Shown: positions 2,191 through 10,465 of the stretch, one piece after another
How the letters are laid out: each line of letters begins with the position of its first letter
Position numbering within the stretch: the first letter of the stretch is position 1
Source of the DNA: a bacterium
GTDB taxonomy: Bacteria > JAJVIF01 > JAGGVT01
Direction: 5' to 3'
NCBI GenBank assembly: GCA_021157815.1
Contig: JAGGVT010000179.1
Span: 1 to 11,929, forward strand
Length of the DNA stretch: 11,929 nt
Translations under genes and position numbers: made by a program
The notes under the pieces: generated by a model
Told to the model about the DNA's origin: nothing
The model's input: only the letters and a program-made list of their open reading frames with translations
Databases searched by the model: none

Positions 2191-2199
2191 ATTATATCA
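2191..2199 (-). promoter_or_regulatory. extended -10 promoter of the glycosyltransferase gene
   Basis: On the minus strand the sequence reads TGATATAAT, a perfect TGn-TATAAT extended -10. Only seven bases (TTCGTTC) separate it from the ATG at 2183, so transcription should start at or within a base or two of the initiation codon. No good -35 is present, which is usual for extended -10 promoters. Confidence 0.6.
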
Positions 2200-2249
2200 T
2201 GTATGTATCTGACATCACGGATTTAGCTTTCAAATTTAGAGCTTTTGAT

Positions 2250-2278
2250 TTGTATATTACAATCATGCGGTTTATAAT
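2250..2278 (+). promoter_or_regulatory. promoter of the parvulin gene
   Basis: TTGTAT at 2250-2255, a 17-bp spacer, and a perfect TATAAT at 2273-2278. The predicted start near 2285 gives a leader of about 34 nt containing the ribosome-binding site AGGGAG (2306-2311). It is divergent from the glycosyltransferase promoter, about 55 bp away. Confidence 0.6.
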
Positions 2279-2318
2279 CCCTTGGCTTATATTAAATGAT
2301 TTATCAGGGAGAAAGAAA

Positions 2319-3839
2319 ATGAAACATACATCCCTAATGATTATCCTGATTTGCCTCGTGGCATTTCCACTTATGGCAACATGCGGATGTGAAACGGCGG
2401 TTGACGATACGCAGGAAAACGGTGAGATTGAGCAGACTGTTATCACAGACCCGGATGGTGTGGTTTTAACCATCAACGGCATGCCTGTAACCAAAGCTGA
2501 ATTGGAGGACGTTGTTGAATCTGCAACTCCGGATAATAAAATGGGGCTTTTCAGGGCATTTCAAATGCACTACCTTCTGCAGACAACCATTGAAAAACAC
2601 TTCAAGAAAGAAATAAAGGAACTGTCTGATGAAATGGAGGGCATTGTTGAGAAAATCAATAACAAAAAAATCACATTTGAAGATGCAATCATGGAATATT
2701 CAGATGATCCTGACAAAGAAAGGTCAAATGGATTGATTGAAGGATACAGTACTGGAGCAGCTTTCTATGTCCTTGACCAGCAACTTTTAAATCTAAAGGA
2801 AGGTGAGATTTCGGAGCCGTTCATAAGTCCGATAGGTTGTATGATTATCAGAAAAGAGAAAGAAAATCTTGATCTTAACGGTGGATTTGTTTCCGCCGAT
2901 ATCAGGCAGTTGATTCTTTCACTTGACAGGTTCCTGCCGGAAGGTGAAAACACCTTAACGAAATTGCAGGAACTTGCGATGGAATCTGATGTTGAATTAA
3001 TAGATATCAGCCTTCTAAAGGAAATCCCGGAACTTCAGATGATAAAAACTCCTCCTGAAGAATATGAGACTCGCAGGGCGGAGATAGATAGTCTTGAAAT
3101 GCCTGAAACCGACTGGCGTGATGTTGATCCTGATACTGTAATAGCAAAGCTCAACGACTATGATATAACAAGCGGTGAATTGAAGGAAATAGTGCAGGCA
3201 AGCATGCCGTCAAAACGCGATATGTACAAAAATGCAATTTACAATCAATTTGTGCCGTCCTTGAGTATGATTGGAATGTTCAAGGATCATCATGAGGAAA
3301 TGATTAGTAAACTCAAGGATATCACTGCAAAAATCGAAAAAGGTGAAATGACATTTGAAGAGGCGCAGGAGGAATATTCCACTGATCCTGGAAAAGAACA
3401 AGGTTATGTTTACGAGGGCATAGGACGGCACCAATTCGTTCCGGAGTTTGAAAAGATTATGTTCACTATTCCTGTAAAGGAAATTTCAGAACCTTTCTTC
3501 ACACAATTTGGCTGCCATATCCTTATGGTTGAGGAAGAGACCAAAAATGAAGATGGTGAACGTGAGACTGTTGATGTGCGACATATCCTTTTAGGATTCG
3601 ACCAGTATATGGACAAGGATGATCCGGAAGCGATGAGGAAGTTGAATCAGAAAGAGGACAAGGAACTGGATATAAAGGTTTATGATTCGTATATTCAATC
3701 ATTGCTTCCCGGACTTGGGCACGAGAATGATACAGTCGAAGAGCCTGAGAAACCTGTAGAAACTGAAGAAGAAACCGAAGAACTGAAGGAAAGCGAGGAA
3801 ACTGAGGATGCTTCTGATTCGGAAGAGAGTGGAGAATAA
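2319..3839 (+). CDS. secreted two-module parvulin-type peptidyl-prolyl isomerase
   Basis: This gene encodes a 506-residue exported foldase of the SurA/PrsA/PpiC class. I chose the ATG at 2319 because AGGGAG sits seven bases upstream and a signal peptide follows; the frame stays open back to 2199, but that part overlaps the promoter. Residues 1-21 are hydrophobic and followed by CGC, possibly an atypical lipobox. The protein has two copies of the same unit: an N-terminal segment (TINGMPVTKAEL at 51-62, AKLNDYDITSGEL at 276-288), helices, then a parvulin core (about 118-203 and 342-427). Module 2 keeps both conserved histidines (GCHIL, His400; VRHILL, His422), while module 1 has Met174 and Gln197 instead, so probably only module 2 is catalytic. 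The tail from about 471 is strongly acidic (Glu-rich). The HIL strand follows the core in each module instead of preceding it. Confidence 0.82.
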   Translation: MKHTSLMIILICLVAFPLMATCGCETAVDDTQENGEIEQTVITDPDGVVLTINGMPVTKAELEDVVESATPDNKMGLFRAFQMHYLLQTTIEKHFKKEIKELSDEMEGIVEKINNKKITFEDAIMEYSDDPDKERSNGLIEGYSTGAAFYVLDQQLLNLKEGEISEPFISPIGCMIIRKEKENLDLNGGFVSADIRQLILSLDRFLPEGENTLTKLQELAMESDVELIDISLLKEIPELQMIKTPPEEYETRRAEIDSLEMPETDWRDVDPDTVIAKLNDYDITSGELKEIVQASMPSKRDMYKNAIYNQFVPSLSMIGMFKDHHEEMISKLKDITAKIEKGEMTFEEAQEEYSTDPGKEQGYVYEGIGRHQFVPEFEKIMFTIPVKEISEPFFTQFGCHILMVEEETKNEDGERETVDVRHILLGFDQYMDKDDPEAMRKLNQKEDKELDIKVYDSYIQSLLPGLGHENDTVEEPEKPVETEEETEELKESEETEDASDSEESGE

Positions 3840-4609: not shown

Positions 4610-4624
4610 TTTGGCAATAGCGAT

Positions 4625-5704
4625 ATGTTCGTGGATGAAGTTGAAATAGAGATTCATGCAGGACGGGGCGGCGATGGCTGCATCGCGTTTCTCCGTGAGA
4701 AATTCAAACCCAAAGGCGGTCCCGCTGGAGGCAACGGAGGAAATGGCGGCAATGTCTATGTCGAAATAGAGAAAGGCCTTCTTACTTTGCAGCATTTCAG
4801 GGGGCAAAGGATATTCAAAGCCGGCAGGGGCGGAAATGGTGAGGGAAAAAAACGAAAGGGAGCGCGTGGCAAAGATGTTGTGGTTCGAGTTCCCCCCGGA
4901 ACATCAATTTACGACATGACATCAAAAATCTTCATTGCCGACATGGATGAGAATAGCAAAAAGTTTCTTCTGGCAAAGGGAGGAAAAGGCGGACTGGGAA
5001 ACGCAATCTTTGCAACATCGATAAAGCAAACTCCTCGAAAAGCAACTCCGGGTGTGGATGGCGAAATGAAAAAACTTCACCTGGAATTAAAGATGATTGC
5101 GGATATCGGCGTCGTTGGATTGCCAAGCGCGGGAAAATCGAGCCTTGTTGCTCTTGTTTCATCCGCCGACCCAAAAAAGGCTGAGTATCATTTCACAACG
5201 CTCGTGCCTAAAATCGGACACATTGATTTAGGCGGATTCTACAGGGTGGTTATTGCGGATCTGCCCGGATTAATCGAGGATGCCCACGAGGGCAGGGGAC
5301 TCGGGCACAAATTCCTTAAACACATTCAGCGTACGCAAATGCTTGTCCACATGATATCGTGGCGCGATGAATTCGCTGACAACCCCGACGAGTTCATGAA
5401 CGACAGGGAAATCATTCTAAATGAAATGTACAAATTTGATAAATCGCTTCTTGAGAAACCGAAATATACCGTGCTGAACAAGATTGATATGATTGGCTCA
5501 GAACTTGATAGTGAAAAAATAATCGGTGAACTGAAAAATCGTCTTGGAGATGAAACACTGCACGCAATCTCAATTCAAACACACGACGGAGTCGAAGCGC
5601 TGATTCAGGAGATTGCAGAGAGAATGCTGGTCGATTCAGGTAAATTTATCGAGGGGCTTCCTGTTCAATTCAAGCTTGATGAGGATTCAAAACAAATATA
5701 TTAA
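4625..5704 (+). CDS. obgE: GTPase Obg (50S ribosome assembly)
   Basis: This gene encodes the Obg/CgtA GTPase (359 residues), a 50S-assembly factor linked to growth control. The glycine-rich Obg fold (about 1-158) begins with the canonical MFVDEV and contains the GGPAGGNGGNGG and GKGGLGN loops. The G domain shows G1 GLPSAGKSS (165-173), G2 TT (191-192), G3 DLPG (212-215) and G4 NKID (285-288). The G5 loop reads SIQT (316-319) where SAxT is usual. The protein stops soon after the G domain, with no OCT extension. In-frame ATGs at 4571 and 4583 are rejected because they fall inside the terminator hairpin and would add a non-family N-terminus. The chosen ATG lacks a clear ribosome-binding site. 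nadD follows after 60 bp. Confidence 0.96.
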   Translation: MFVDEVEIEIHAGRGGDGCIAFLREKFKPKGGPAGGNGGNGGNVYVEIEKGLLTLQHFRGQRIFKAGRGGNGEGKKRKGARGKDVVVRVPPGTSIYDMTSKIFIADMDENSKKFLLAKGGKGGLGNAIFATSIKQTPRKATPGVDGEMKKLHLELKMIADIGVVGLPSAGKSSLVALVSSADPKKAEYHFTTLVPKIGHIDLGGFYRVVIADLPGLIEDAHEGRGLGHKFLKHIQRTQMLVHMISWRDEFADNPDEFMNDREIILNEMYKFDKSLLEKPKYTVLNKIDMIGSELDSEKIIGELKNRLGDETLHAISIQTHDGVEALIQEIAERMLVDSGKFIEGLPVQFKLDEDSKQIY

Positions 5705-5764: not shown

Positions 5765-6418
5765 ATGGGAAAAATAGAAAAAATAGGAATCATTGGCGGT
5801 TCGTTCGACCCTCCGCACGAAGCTCATATGGCTATGGCTCGAAAAGCGCGTGATGAATTCAGTCTTGACCAAATAATGTTTGTTCCGTGCCACCAGAATC
5901 CTCTAAAGGATTTTACGGGCCACGCAAGTCCCTATCACAGGTATGTAATGTGCCAGCTGGCGACTTTGGTCGAGGAGGATTTTCCCGTAACCCCAATTGA
6001 ACTGAATCGTGGCGGATTAAGCTACACCATAGATACTCTCAGGGAAATAGCCCGAACCGGATTTGAGCTGTTTCTTCTAATCGGCATGGATGCTTTTCAA
6101 ACAATTAACGGATGGAAAGATGCGAATCTATTTCCCGAACTGTGTAAATTGATTGTTTTTTCAAGAGAGAAAGAATTTGATATTGAAAAGATACCGGATG
6201 AAATAATTAAGGTGAGTAATTTCATAACCGGATTTGATATTAATGTTTCATCAACTGAAATTAGAAAGAAAGTAAGAAGTGGGGAAAGTATCGACTGGGA
6301 TGTGGCTCCGATGGTTGATGTTTACATACGGAAATATGAACTTTACAAGCATTTTAGAGATCAAAACCGGCTGATAGACAATCAACCAAAACAGTTCTTC
6401 ATAAAGGGAGTTGAATGA
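5765..6418 (+). CDS. nadD: nicotinate-nucleotide adenylyltransferase
   Basis: This gene encodes NadD (217 residues), which makes deamido-NAD from nicotinate mononucleotide and ATP in the cytoplasm. The nucleotidyltransferase signature GGSFDPPHEAH (11-21, with His18 and His21 of the HxxH type) and the C-terminal VSSTEIRKKV (161-170, matching the ISSTxIR motif) are intact, as are SYTIDTL (86-92) and GMDAF (107-111). Length and motif order are normal for the family. No other start is possible before the signature, yet the bases upstream of the ATG contain no G at all for 15 nt, so there is no ribosome-binding site. It sits in its usual place after obg and before yqeK. A large hairpin element begins five bases after its stop codon. 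Confidence 0.95.
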   Translation: MGKIEKIGIIGGSFDPPHEAHMAMARKARDEFSLDQIMFVPCHQNPLKDFTGHASPYHRYVMCQLATLVEEDFPVTPIELNRGGLSYTIDTLREIARTGFELFLLIGMDAFQTINGWKDANLFPELCKLIVFSREKEFDIEKIPDEIIKVSNFITGFDINVSSTEIRKKVRSGESIDWDVAPMVDVYIRKYELYKHFRDQNRLIDNQPKQFFIKGVE

Positions 6419-6422
6419 GGCA

Positions 6423-6655
6423 TTTGAAATTTTGGCTCTTCAATAAATCGTGTGGGTTGAGTTTCGATTGAGTAAAAAAAGGGGACTTTCCCAACCAAGT
6501 GAATAAACACAGTATAAATAAGGGGTTACAGCATAGTATATTGATAACATCAGATTTGAAGCATCATGTGGACGTACCCCATGATTAGGGAATGCCCCTT
6601 TTTTTACGGGGGTGCAAATAACCCACACAGTTTATTGAAGTGCCGAAATTTTAAG
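6423..6655 (+). ncRNA. candidate structured RNA: 233-nt long-hairpin element
   Basis: This sequence folds as a set of nested stems. P1 pairs 6423-6458 with 6620-6655 without gaps over 36 positions: 30 Watson-Crick, four G.U and two mismatches. An internal loop of 15 and 14 nt (6459-6473, 6606-6619) follows. P2 pairs 6474-6492 with 6588-6605, 17 Watson-Crick pairs including A7GGGG/CCCCT7, with one bulged A and one U.U. P3 pairs GGGGTTAC (6522-6529) with GTACCCC (6574-6580). The four wobbles are G.U only if the + strand is transcribed; on the other strand they would be A.C mismatches. It may be a processed or trans-acting RNA, an operon-internal control element, or a decaying palindromic mobile repeat. 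A long stem interrupted by an internal bubble recalls 6S RNA, but I see no conserved 6S sequence. Confidence 0.5.
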
Positions 6656-6706
6656 AGAGATGCGGAAATATTTAATCTAAATCGTTTTCGGCTTGTTTCT
6701 TGCATA

Positions 6707-6786
6707 TTACGATTCAAGTCTGATAAATGCAAATAAGCCGGTATATTCTCTATCAATTAGAAAACCGGTAATTGGTCTCTGGCTTA
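6707..6786 (+). repeat. 80-bp leader repeat, copy B
   Basis: This is the second copy of the repeat at 53-132 (68/80 identical, gapless), ending 24 bp before the YqeK-LCP start codon. It has its own inverted repeats: TAAGCC (6734-6739) with GGCTTA (6781-6786), CCGGT (6738-6742) with ACCGG (6764-6768), and CAATTA with TAATTG across the ACCGG side. The TAAGCC/GGCTTA pair is only partly kept in copy A, whereas the CCGGT stem is kept in both. Confidence 0.7.
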
Positions 6787-6789
6787 AAA

Positions 6790-6803
6790 CAACACTAGTG
6801 TTG
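6790..6803. promoter_or_regulatory. perfect 14-bp palindrome before the YqeK-LCP start
   Basis: CAACACTAGTGTTG is a perfect palindrome ending seven bases before the ATG at 6811. Its position suits an operator for a dimeric repressor, or a hairpin that would mask the weak ribosome-binding region (GAGA, 6803-6806). Copy A of the upstream repeat is not followed by an equivalent palindrome, so this element is specific to the fusion gene. Confidence 0.45.
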
Positions 6804-6810
6804 AGAATTA

Positions 6811-8457
6811 ATGGATAAAACCAAAACGGAAAATATTACAGATACCATAGTAGAGCACCTGAAGCGCACATTGACGCCCAAGCTTTTCAATCATTGTTTG
6901 CATACTCGTGATTACGCACTGAAATTAAATAGTGAACTTTCACTTGGCCTTGATGAAACCAAAGTCGAGATTGCCGCTCTTCTGCATGACATGGCGAAGG
7001 AATATCCTGTCAGGCAGTATTTTGACATAGCCAACCGATATGGCTATGTCTTTGATGATTTCATCCTTAATAATTCAAAATTGATGCATGGCGTGATAGG
7101 AGCTTTCGAGGCGAAAAAATGGTTTGAAATTGATGATGATGAAATATTGAGCGCGATTGCCAAACACACAGTTGGTTGCGCTGATATGAACAACCTTGAT
7201 CTTCTCATTTTTGTCGCGGACAAAATTGAACCGGGCAGGAAATTTCCAGATGCCAATCGATTGCGAAAACTGATAGAGAAAAACTTTTTTAAAGGCACTC
7301 TTGCGATTTTCCAATCAAATAAAGAATTCGTTTTGTCAAAGGGTATCGAATACCACCCGGATGGCGACAGGGCAATTGAACGTTTGAAAAAGCGAATAGA
7401 CAATCCTGATTATCAAGAGACAATTGGAAAAACCCGCAAAGAAAAATCTGATGAAATTAACGGTGTCCTTGGCGCGAGTGAAAAGAAGACATTTATCCTA
7501 TCACTTATTTCAATCGACAGATACATAATCGTATGCGCGATTCTTGCAATATTAATCACCTTTCTCGGCTCGACTGTCTATGGCCTCTATGTTTTATACA
7601 CTGGAATTGGAACATCAAGCAATGCCGTTTCCGGAAAGCATTCGCCATCATATTATTTCAACGGCAGGGAGGAACTTCTCTTCCTTATAGCAGGACTTGA
7701 TGAGGTGGAACACAGAAGTCGCACCGATGCTTTAATCCTTGCCAAACTCGATTTCAAACGCAAGAAACTGAAACTTGTTTCAATTCCGCGTGATACGTAT
7801 GTCGAGATTCCAGGGAGTGTTTCAAACTATTGGGACAGGATTAATGCGGCATATACACGCGGTGGAAAGGAAAGGCTTCTTAAAGCAATTTACAATTTGA
7901 CAGGGCATTATCCGGATTATCTCATTCTCATTGATTATGAGGGATTCAAAACAATTGTTGATCTTATCGGTGGCGTTGAAATAGATGTGGAAAAAAATAT
8001 GAATTATGATGACAACGCTGGAGGTCTCCATATTCATATTCAAAAGGGATTGCAGGTGCTTAATGGTGATGATTCGCTGGGTTATGTGCGGTATCGCAAG
8101 GATATAGACGGCGACTTTTCCCGAATGAGACGGCAGCAGAATTTTGGGAAAGTTTTTTTAAAAAGTCTCAAAAGCCCTAAAAACGCTTTTAAAGCTGGAA
8201 AGATCATTTCAGCTATTGCTGAATGTGTTGATTTTACAGTAATTGAATCAGATAAAAAGGACTTGAATATCACGGATAAAAAGCTCAAATTCATTCAATA
8301 CATGGCAATCGAAAAAGTGATTAAAAATGTCCCATCTGATAACATACAAAACAGTACTGTTCCCATTTCCAAGGAGGGCATTGTCGATAAGAAATGGGTG
8401 CTGATTCCCGACTATACTGAATTTGATATAATGATGACTGAGTTTTTTAGCCCTTAA
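6811..8457 (+). CDS. YqeK HD hydrolase fused to LCP cell-wall ligase
   Basis: This gene encodes a 548-residue fusion. Residues 1 to about 200 are a full-length YqeK-type HD domain, a family that cleaves Ap4A symmetrically to 2 ADP; likely metal ligands are His31, His59-Asp60, His93, His119 and Asp137 (LLHDMAK, LMHG, AKHT, VADKIEPGR). After a polar linker (about 200-226) one membrane helix spans about 237-260. An LCP (LytR-CpsA-Psr) domain follows from about 285 to 450 with GLD (295-297), RSRTD (302-306), SIPRD (324-328), RINAAYTRGG (343-352), VDLIGGVE (383-390), YVRYR (425-429) and DFSRMRRQQ (435-443). LCP enzymes attach lipid-linked polymers to the envelope. The single helix puts the HD domain in the cytoplasm and LCP outside. 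The linker contains no stop or internal Met. Separate yqeK and LCP genes are usual at this position. Confidence 0.9.
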   Translation: MDKTKTENITDTIVEHLKRTLTPKLFNHCLHTRDYALKLNSELSLGLDETKVEIAALLHDMAKEYPVRQYFDIANRYGYVFDDFILNNSKLMHGVIGAFEAKKWFEIDDDEILSAIAKHTVGCADMNNLDLLIFVADKIEPGRKFPDANRLRKLIEKNFFKGTLAIFQSNKEFVLSKGIEYHPDGDRAIERLKKRIDNPDYQETIGKTRKEKSDEINGVLGASEKKTFILSLISIDRYIIVCAILAILITFLGSTVYGLYVLYTGIGTSSNAVSGKHSPSYYFNGREELLFLIAGLDEVEHRSRTDALILAKLDFKRKKLKLVSIPRDTYVEIPGSVSNYWDRINAAYTRGGKERLLKAIYNLTGHYPDYLILIDYEGFKTIVDLIGGVEIDVEKNMNYDDNAGGLHIHIQKGLQVLNGDDSLGYVRYRKDIDGDFSRMRRQQNFGKVFLKSLKSPKNAFKAGKIISAIAECVDFTVIESDKKDLNITDKKLKFIQYMAIEKVIKNVPSDNIQNSTVPISKEGIVDKKWVLIPDYTEFDIMMTEFFSP

Positions 8458-8531: not shown

Positions 8532-8924
8532 ATGCAGGATACCGACAAAACTATCGATACGGAATACATACCGGAAAACACCGAACTTAATCATGCAATT
8601 ACTTTGATGTTGGAGAAAAAAGCGCAGGACGTTGTTGTGGTTGACCTTAGGGGATTCACTCAGCTGTTTGACTTTGCGGTTATCGCATCCGGCCTGAGTT
8701 CGACTCAGCTCGATGTCATCAGGCGAACCCTGGAAAGAGGTTTGAGAAAAATTGGAACAAGACCTATGGGAACGGAAGGGTCAGCGCAAAGCGGTTGGAT
8801 TCTTCTCGATTATGTCGATTTCGTTATCCACGTATTCAGCAAGGAAAAAAGAGAATACTACCGCCTCGAAAAACTATGGGGCGACATGCCCTCAATAACG
8901 ATAGAAAATAATTCAGAATTGTAA
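8532..8924 (+). CDS. rsfS: ribosomal silencing factor RsfS (Iojap/YbeB family)
   Basis: This gene encodes RsfS (130 residues), which binds L14 on the 50S subunit and blocks joining with 30S when nutrients are short. The protein shows the family features in order: the KKAQDVVVVDLRG strand (about 29-41), DFAVIASGLSSTQ (47-59), the conserved glycine/tryptophan segment GSAQSGWILLDYVDFVIHVF (about 82-101), and the YYRLEKLWGDMP ending (about 108-119). About 19 variable residues precede the domain. GGAG at 8524-8527 supports the ATG. It closes the obg-nadD-yqeK-LCP-rsfS series in the usual order, and with Obg makes this block a 50S assembly and silencing cluster. Confidence 0.95.
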   Translation: MQDTDKTIDTEYIPENTELNHAITLMLEKKAQDVVVVDLRGFTQLFDFAVIASGLSSTQLDVIRRTLERGLRKIGTRPMGTEGSAQSGWILLDYVDFVIHVFSKEKREYYRLEKLWGDMPSITIENNSEL

Positions 8925-9250: not shown

Positions 9251-10465
9251 GTGATTAAAAAGTTTGCCATAATTACATCCCTTGCTATTCTAACCACAAT
9301 ATTGGTTCAGAATGCCGGTATGACGAAACGTGTTTTCGACACAGAACTTATGTTCAACCCACGATCTGGACAGAGCTATCATTACGCGCAGATGACGCGA
9401 TTAAGGGGTTCGGAGATTTCATTCCAGAGAGTTAAGGAATTCAGCGGTATGATTCAAACAATATTTGATGAGAAATGCAACTCGAATTCTAATGGAATCA
9501 TCTCAAACACTCTCCAATACCAGACTTATGAGGTACTGGGTGAAACCAGCGGCGTATGGGATGAACAGCCTTTTGGCGGGCCGTTTGGTCCGGGTAGAGG
9601 CCCATATTCCAGCGCTCCGTATGATCCCCCTTCCGGCAGTGAAGGTCCTGAAAGAGGTGAAGAAAGCCCTTCAGTTCAATCAGCTCCTGAAAATGAAGGT
9701 CCACAACCCATGCAGGGAATGGGTCCTGGCGGTGGTGGTTCCGGTGGCGGTGGCGAATGGGGCCAGCGGCAGAGACGTGAAGAATCCGACTCTTTCCGAA
9801 TCACACCGATTCTTGAAACCCAGTTGAATTATACAATTGCACAGGATGGCCGACTTCTCGACATGGAGGGACTCGATTTGATTGGCGATTTCTATGACCC
9901 GCAAAATCAAATCTCCGTCAGGCAGGTTTTCCAGTCATCTCACTTTTTAACTTTGCCAAGCTACGAAATTCATGTTGGCGAAAGCTGGCGTGGGCCTTTC
10001 TTCTGGACAATTCCTTTCGTCGGTGAAACACGAAAATTCGACATGCAGTTCACCCTTGAGGAAATTGAAATTCAGGAAAGATACCGGCTGGCAAACATTG
10101 CGTTCTATGGCATCGACCAGTTCGACACCGTAACAACCGATGAAAAATGGGACGATTTCTTCGGGACAGATGTTCGAATCGATTCGGATGTTCATTGTGA
10201 CGTCATGCTCAATGGGAACATACTTTTCGATATCGACCGTGGCATTGTAGTTGCGATTGGCGATGACCTTCGATCAAAACAGTGGATACCCTACATCAAC
10301 CCGAATTCATTCCCGACACCGCTTGGAAGCAACAATCTACTTTCAACAATTGTAGTTGACAGGATGGACACCAAAACTCCACTTGGCAACGTGTTGGATA
10401 ATGAGCCAAGAACGGATCACATCGTTCAGGACATGGTCTGGTCAACATGGTTAATTCTTGAGTAA
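9251..10465 (+). CDS. exported protein of unknown function with Gly/Pro-rich insert
   Basis: I do not recognise this 404-residue protein. It starts with GTG, supported by AAGGAGG seven bases upstream. Residues 1 to about 22 form a signal peptide or membrane anchor (MIKK then a hydrophobic run). A first folded part (about 28-102) is followed by a low-complexity linker at about 105-180, rich in Gly, Pro, Ser and Glu, with two GGGG runs. A second folded part (about 183-404) contains LPSYEIHVGESWRG (235-248), strand-like segments, and NGNILFDIDRGIVVAIGDD (321-339). The pattern of a protein sized or delivered by GxSW and ending in xFDxxxGxV resembles DUF6263-like exported beta-rich proteins, but that is only an impression. 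It has its own promoter and terminator, so it is a single-gene unit. The only Cys residues are 76 and 316. Confidence 0.75.
   Translation: MIKKFAIITSLAILTTILVQNAGMTKRVFDTELMFNPRSGQSYHYAQMTRLRGSEISFQRVKEFSGMIQTIFDEKCNSNSNGIISNTLQYQTYEVLGETSGVWDEQPFGGPFGPGRGPYSSAPYDPPSGSEGPERGEESPSVQSAPENEGPQPMQGMGPGGGGSGGGGEWGQRQRREESDSFRITPILETQLNYTIAQDGRLLDMEGLDLIGDFYDPQNQISVRQVFQSSHFLTLPSYEIHVGESWRGPFFWTIPFVGETRKFDMQFTLEEIEIQERYRLANIAFYGIDQFDTVTTDEKWDDFFGTDVRIDSDVHCDVMLNGNILFDIDRGIVVAIGDDLRSKQWIPYINPNSFPTPLGSNNLLSTIVVDRMDTKTPLGNVLDNEPRTDHIVQDMVWSTWLILE

Follow-up and report, generated by a model that had tools for sequence, protein, structure and literature searches.

An open reading frame joining YqeK to an LCP glycopolymer transferase probably reflects a natural merger of operon neighbours

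The genes yqeK and lytR, the latter coding for a LytR-CpsA-Psr (LCP) protein, are separate members of a nadD-yqeK-lytR-rsfS cluster that occurs across Firmicutes and, at least partly, in other phyla (PMC7549365). The locus described here carries both in a single frame, which raises the question of whether this frame is a genuine gene and, if so, whether it ties nucleotide hydrolysis to glycopolymer attachment. We analyzed the complete 11.9-kb contig on which it lies (C32, hereafter the window), which stems from a MAG assembly of 221 contigs totaling 3.2 Mb with 91% completeness. Positions 6811-8457 of the forward strand form one unbroken 548-codon frame with both domains inside (Table 1); the ORF listing thus agrees with a preliminary description of this DNA, which had reported a single uninterrupted frame of that length. 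Measured from stop to stop, the frame extends over 550 codons, so that the ATG start is nearly forced. The gene order in the window is obg-nadD-[fusion]-rsfS, with family models placing nadD 5' and rsfS 3' of the fusion, in line with the nadD-rsfS context cited in the preliminary description.

Table 1. Coordinates of the fused gene, its parts and its neighbors in the window.
Feature	Position	Strand	Basis
Fused yqeK-LCP gene, 548 aa	6811..8457	+	ORF listing; TIGR00488 and PF03816 matches
YqeK (HD phosphohydrolase) domain, residues 1-203	6811..7419	+	TIGR00488; alignment to 3ccg, 2ogi, 8jja, 2o08
Linker, residues ~204-233	7420..7510	+	Aligns with cytoplasmic N-terminal tail of stand-alone LCPs
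Single transmembrane helix, residues ~237-262	7519..7596	+	Kyte-Doolittle windows up to 2.49; model helix 235-266
LCP (LytR-CpsA-Psr) domain core, residues 304-453	7720..8169	+	PF03816; MsrR, TagV, TagU structure matches
obg, further upstream, start approximate	4616..5704	+	TIGR02729, 396.8 bits
nadD, upstream neighbor	5765..6418	+	NF000840, TIGR00482, above cut-off
rsfS, downstream neighbor	8532..8924	+	TIGR00090, 99.5 bits

Each half was assigned by a family model and by comparison with characterized relatives. The symmetrical Ap4A hydrolase model TIGR00488 matched residues 17-184 with 114.5 bits (curated cut-off, 70.15), and the solved structures related to this half were 3ccg, 2ogi, 8jja and 2o08. 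In Streptococcus pyogenes YqeK, residues H29, H58, D59, K62, H91, H117 and D135 bind two metals or are required for Ap4A cleavage (PMC11857287), and our alignment placed H28, H59, D60, K63, H93, H119 and D137 of the fusion at these positions. The set of metal-ligand motifs, described earlier as complete, therefore contains all published ligands. The LCP model PF03816 matched residues 304-453 with 142.3 bits (gathering score, 24.6), and MsrR (6uex), TagV (6uf3) and TagU (6uf6) were the solved LCP structures matching the fusion. Such sequence-level hits to known structures suffice to assign the fold of each half. Aligning the fusion with five other LCPs revealed D297, R304, D306, R327, R427, R429, D435, R438, R441 and Q442/Q443 to be invariant. 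These residues fit the arginine and aspartate pattern of the family (PMC7831098; PMC6381275) and also align with TagV, MsrR and TagU, bearing out the claim that the phosphate-binding arginines and aspartates are all present. Judging from these motifs, both halves look catalytically complete. According to genome-wide family searches, the fusion gene is the sole YqeK above cut-off and the sole LCP match in its own genome. The same genome encodes three MraY/WecA-type transferases, making it plausible that the host has lipid-linked donors for the predicted glycopolymer transfer, and it contains Omp85, because of which the host cell is probably diderm.

Between the two domains, the fusion contains one strong hydrophobic segment, with 19-residue Kyte-Doolittle windows beginning at residues 227-245, in agreement with the single helix proposed initially. 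By alignment, the counterpart of residues 204-262 in stand-alone LCPs is the N-terminal tail plus helix. In an AlphaFold model of the fusion, residues 1-229 are entirely helical, residues 235-266 form a helix, and the LCP domain, which has an alpha/beta fold, begins at residue 288. Confidence was fair for the LCP and low for the YqeK half (pLDDT of about 40-65), the latter because the underlying alignment contained LCP relatives only. Scanning viral contigs for YqeK relatives with which to deepen this alignment returned none. Lysines and arginines around the helix were weakly biased (three in the 25 residues before it, two after), so that the positive-inside rule alone leaves the orientation unsettled. 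LCP proteins of the TagU/TagV/MsrR type have a short cytoplasmic tail, and this family precedent suggests that the fusion likely spans the membrane once, with YqeK in the cytoplasm and LCP on the other side, the arrangement put forward in the preliminary description.

Several further features of the neighborhood were recorded. A 392-nt gap (window 6419-6810) separates nadD from the fusion gene and includes a perfect 12-bp palindrome, AACACTAGTGTT, about 8 nt 5' of the fusion start codon; in the genomes G001 and G003, nadD extends 4 nt into yqeK. An Rfam search upstream of the fusion yielded no riboswitch or other RNA family, the sole Rfam match being a tRNA. The number of promoter matches did not differ from chance, and few terminator-like ones occurred (3 versus 1.7 expected). 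Farther downstream, window 9251-10465 encodes a 404-aa, secreted-looking protein matching neither Pfam nor NCBIfam; it has a syntenic relative in G003 (L038:1173-2363, 32% identity, E 4e-69), and both lie 3' of rsfS with a subtilase-family protease further on. On the far side, 5' of the genes for ribosomal proteins L21 and L27, window 2199-3839 encodes two tandem parvulin-type PPIC domains behind a lipoprotein-like N-terminus.

Whether the joint itself is real was assessed by comparison with relatives, by surveying other genomes and by analyzing the linker DNA. The phylum comparison covered four genomes, namely the fusion genome and G001, G002 and G003, and yqeK and LCP were separate genes in all three of the others. 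The two genes overlap as ATGA (4 nt) in G002, are 17 nt apart in G001 and are separated by 15 nt followed by a GTG start in G003; in the more distant G018, the yqeK stop and LCP start overlap as TAATG. The preliminary description had named separate genes in close relatives as an observation that would speak against a fusion. The split is indeed present in all three other phylum genomes, but as identity to these relatives amounts to no more than about 30%, it is equally compatible with a derived fusion and with an artefact. Alignment to the YqeK proteins of three relatives showed that the YqeK-homologous part stops at about residue 203; as the LCP-tail alignment spans residues 204-262, a fusion would need little beyond the loss of one stop and one start. 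Separately, we noted that the LCP gene of G001 (L036:8665-9711) is missing the strand that bears the first catalytic arginine and is interrupted by an in-frame stop at about 8886, reflecting either a damaged gene or an assembly error.

Searches beyond the phylum revealed how rare the architecture is. Among the matches listed for the approximately 1,240 genomes surveyed, YqeK and LCP were joined in 1 of about 450 YqeK frames; the fusion is thus known from one assembly, with no second instance among these matches. In a set of 385 diverse genomes, YqeK scored above cut-off in 79, and a frame long enough to hold LCP as well was found only in the fusion genome (G000). No LCP-containing frame was among the roughly 150-160 matches listed for each of two further sets, 386 and 398 genomes of two other phyla (243 and 335 with YqeK above cut-off, respectively), nor did any listed frame include LCP in 74 genomes of another phylum, 66 of them with YqeK above cut-off. 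Searching the fused protein against 335 genomes gave no single-frame match covering both halves, and scanning genome contigs with it recovered stand-alone LCPs only (L031-L035 inspected). Some candidates were followed up and rejected: in G131, whose genome is GC-rich, the long YqeK frame (453 aa) reflects an N-terminal extension that happens to be open, and no second domain was recognized in it, and the long YqeK frames of G403 (437) and G423 (321) as well as those of G144 and G280 were unfused.

Within the linker, codon usage in frame 0 scored -3.91 per codon, like coding DNA of the genome (-3.97, sd 0.09). Stop-free shadow frames lay at -4.23 (sd 0.09), and none of them (0/494) reached the linker score; of the stop-free windows taken from regions separating long ORFs, 7% did so. 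This test is insensitive to one missing base at about 7453-7479, because frame 0 would then be coding on both sides. Such a consensus or assembly error would conceal two overlapping genes, with LCP starting at an ATG at 7451 in frame +1, and the local sequence offers a plausible gene pair of this kind: frame +1 is open from that ATG to about 7525, and yqeK would end at the frame +2 stop at about 7479. In the relatives, the two are separate genes that overlap or nearly do so. However, the 7453-7479 interval has no homopolymer above three bases, the ATG at 7451 has no Shine-Dalgarno match, and the neighboring genes on the contig are uninterrupted and recognized by their family models. An error located elsewhere would require either two independent errors or initiation at a TTG at 7384. 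We therefore consider an assembly error quite unlikely, and the fusion of yqeK and LCP is probably real.

A second way of obtaining a separate LCP protein would be internal initiation on the fused message. The claim that the linker has no in-frame ATG held, but the preliminary description did not mention the in-frame TTG at 7384 (codon 192). This codon sits right at the end of the YqeK domain, and starting there would yield an LCP of normal appearance whose cytoplasmic tail is short. Its Shine-Dalgarno match, however, comprises only 3 bases, a score that is equally best at 37% of random sites in the genome, making initiation at this position unlikely. That LCP is additionally made alone from this TTG, or that the fusion is cleaved after insertion, is in our estimate very improbable.

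Fusions of YqeK to other partners put the finding into perspective. NCBIfam models confirmed NadD-YqeK, YqeK-RsfS and YqeK-Nudix proteins. As NadD and RsfS are neighbors in the same cluster, fusion by proximity recurs at this locus. One YqeK-RsfS example is a 320-aa ORF of G1080 (L075:1575-2537, reverse strand) composed of YqeK (TIGR00488, 146 bits) and RsfS (TIGR00090, 104 bits). A 329-aa ORF in G255 (L050:1511-2500, reverse strand), also present in G119, combines YqeK with a Nudix hydrolase domain and carries a short Cys-containing stretch, CPYCGRW, between the two. No YqeK-LCP fusion was described in the literature searched, and while both families are well known, their combination apparently has been undescribed so far.

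Overall, we favor, with a probability of roughly three in four, a natural in-frame merger of the operon neighbors yqeK and LCP, which would have produced a bitopic protein with two probably separate activities. The yqeK stop and the LCP start, overlapping or no more than about 17 nt apart in relatives, would have been lost to give one frame. The YqeK half, predicted to convert Ap4A to two ADP and probably to act on other dinucleotides, would be held at the cytoplasmic face through the LCP helix, while the LCP half would serve as a glycopolymer transferase on the periplasmic face of the inner membrane; most likely, each half would retain its customary activity independently of the other, at a fixed 1:1 stoichiometry. 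For the YqeK family, a broader diphosphatase activity that extends to other nucleotides has been reported and a role in proofreading NadD products proposed (PMC9426524). We infer that the protein is expressed with this topology and these activities and, most likely, has no dedicated coupling between them.

The preliminary description had suggested that a nucleotide alarmone and envelope polymer attachment are physically coupled. Regulatory coupling across the membrane is indeed possible, and in its strongest form the fusion would be a signaling device: Ap4A, or some other nucleotide bound by YqeK, would regulate LCP ligation, or the reverse. Loss of yqeK alters biofilm or extracellular polysaccharide in Bacillus subtilis, Veillonella parvula and Streptococcus mutans (PMC7549365; PMC10281425), and yqeK adjoins LCP in many distant phyla, both of which would be in line with such a role. 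The S. mutans effect, however, was attributed to gtf gene expression rather than to LCP, the connection between the two halves consists of a short linker and one helix and includes no known transducing domain, and YqeK is fused to NadD and RsfS too, so that LCP is not a specific partner. These points make a signaling device improbable. Similarly doubtful is a bifunctional transmembrane enzyme in which one polypeptide couples Ap4A turnover inside the cell to glycopolymer ligation outside it, be it mechanically or by stoichiometry; if true, it would report a functional link hinted at by the widespread yqeK-LCP adjacency, for which no reason was given in the literature searched. Together, the NadD and RsfS fusions at this locus suggest a merger of neighbors by proximity and not a dedicated signaling device. 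Even so read, a natural fusion would provide a Rosetta-stone type hint that YqeK and LCP can act at a shared membrane location, as well as a ready construct for asking whether nucleotide hydrolysis affects LCP activity, with the recurrence of YqeK fusions at the same locus cautioning against over-reading this one.

The fusion can be compared with several known systems. The nadD-yqeK-lytR(LCP)-rsfS cluster of Bacillota and others (PMC7549365) has the same genes, order and neighbors, but yqeK and LCP are separate there and form a single frame here. In NadD-YqeK (PRK07152), known from mycoplasmas and others (PMC9426524), YqeK is likewise joined to a cluster neighbor, yet that partner is the upstream, cytoplasmic NadD, whereas here it is the downstream membrane enzyme LCP. 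The YqeK-RsfS protein of G1080 resembles the fusion in that YqeK is followed C-terminally by the product of a downstream cluster gene; RsfS, in contrast, is soluble and brings no membrane helix, which the fusion described here has. Finally, B. subtilis TagU and TagV and Staphylococcus aureus MsrR share with the fusion one helix, the same arginines and an LCP domain that, in the fusion, is predicted to be extracytoplasmic behind a similar N-terminal tail, but have no cytoplasmic enzymatic domain, the position at which the fusion would carry YqeK.
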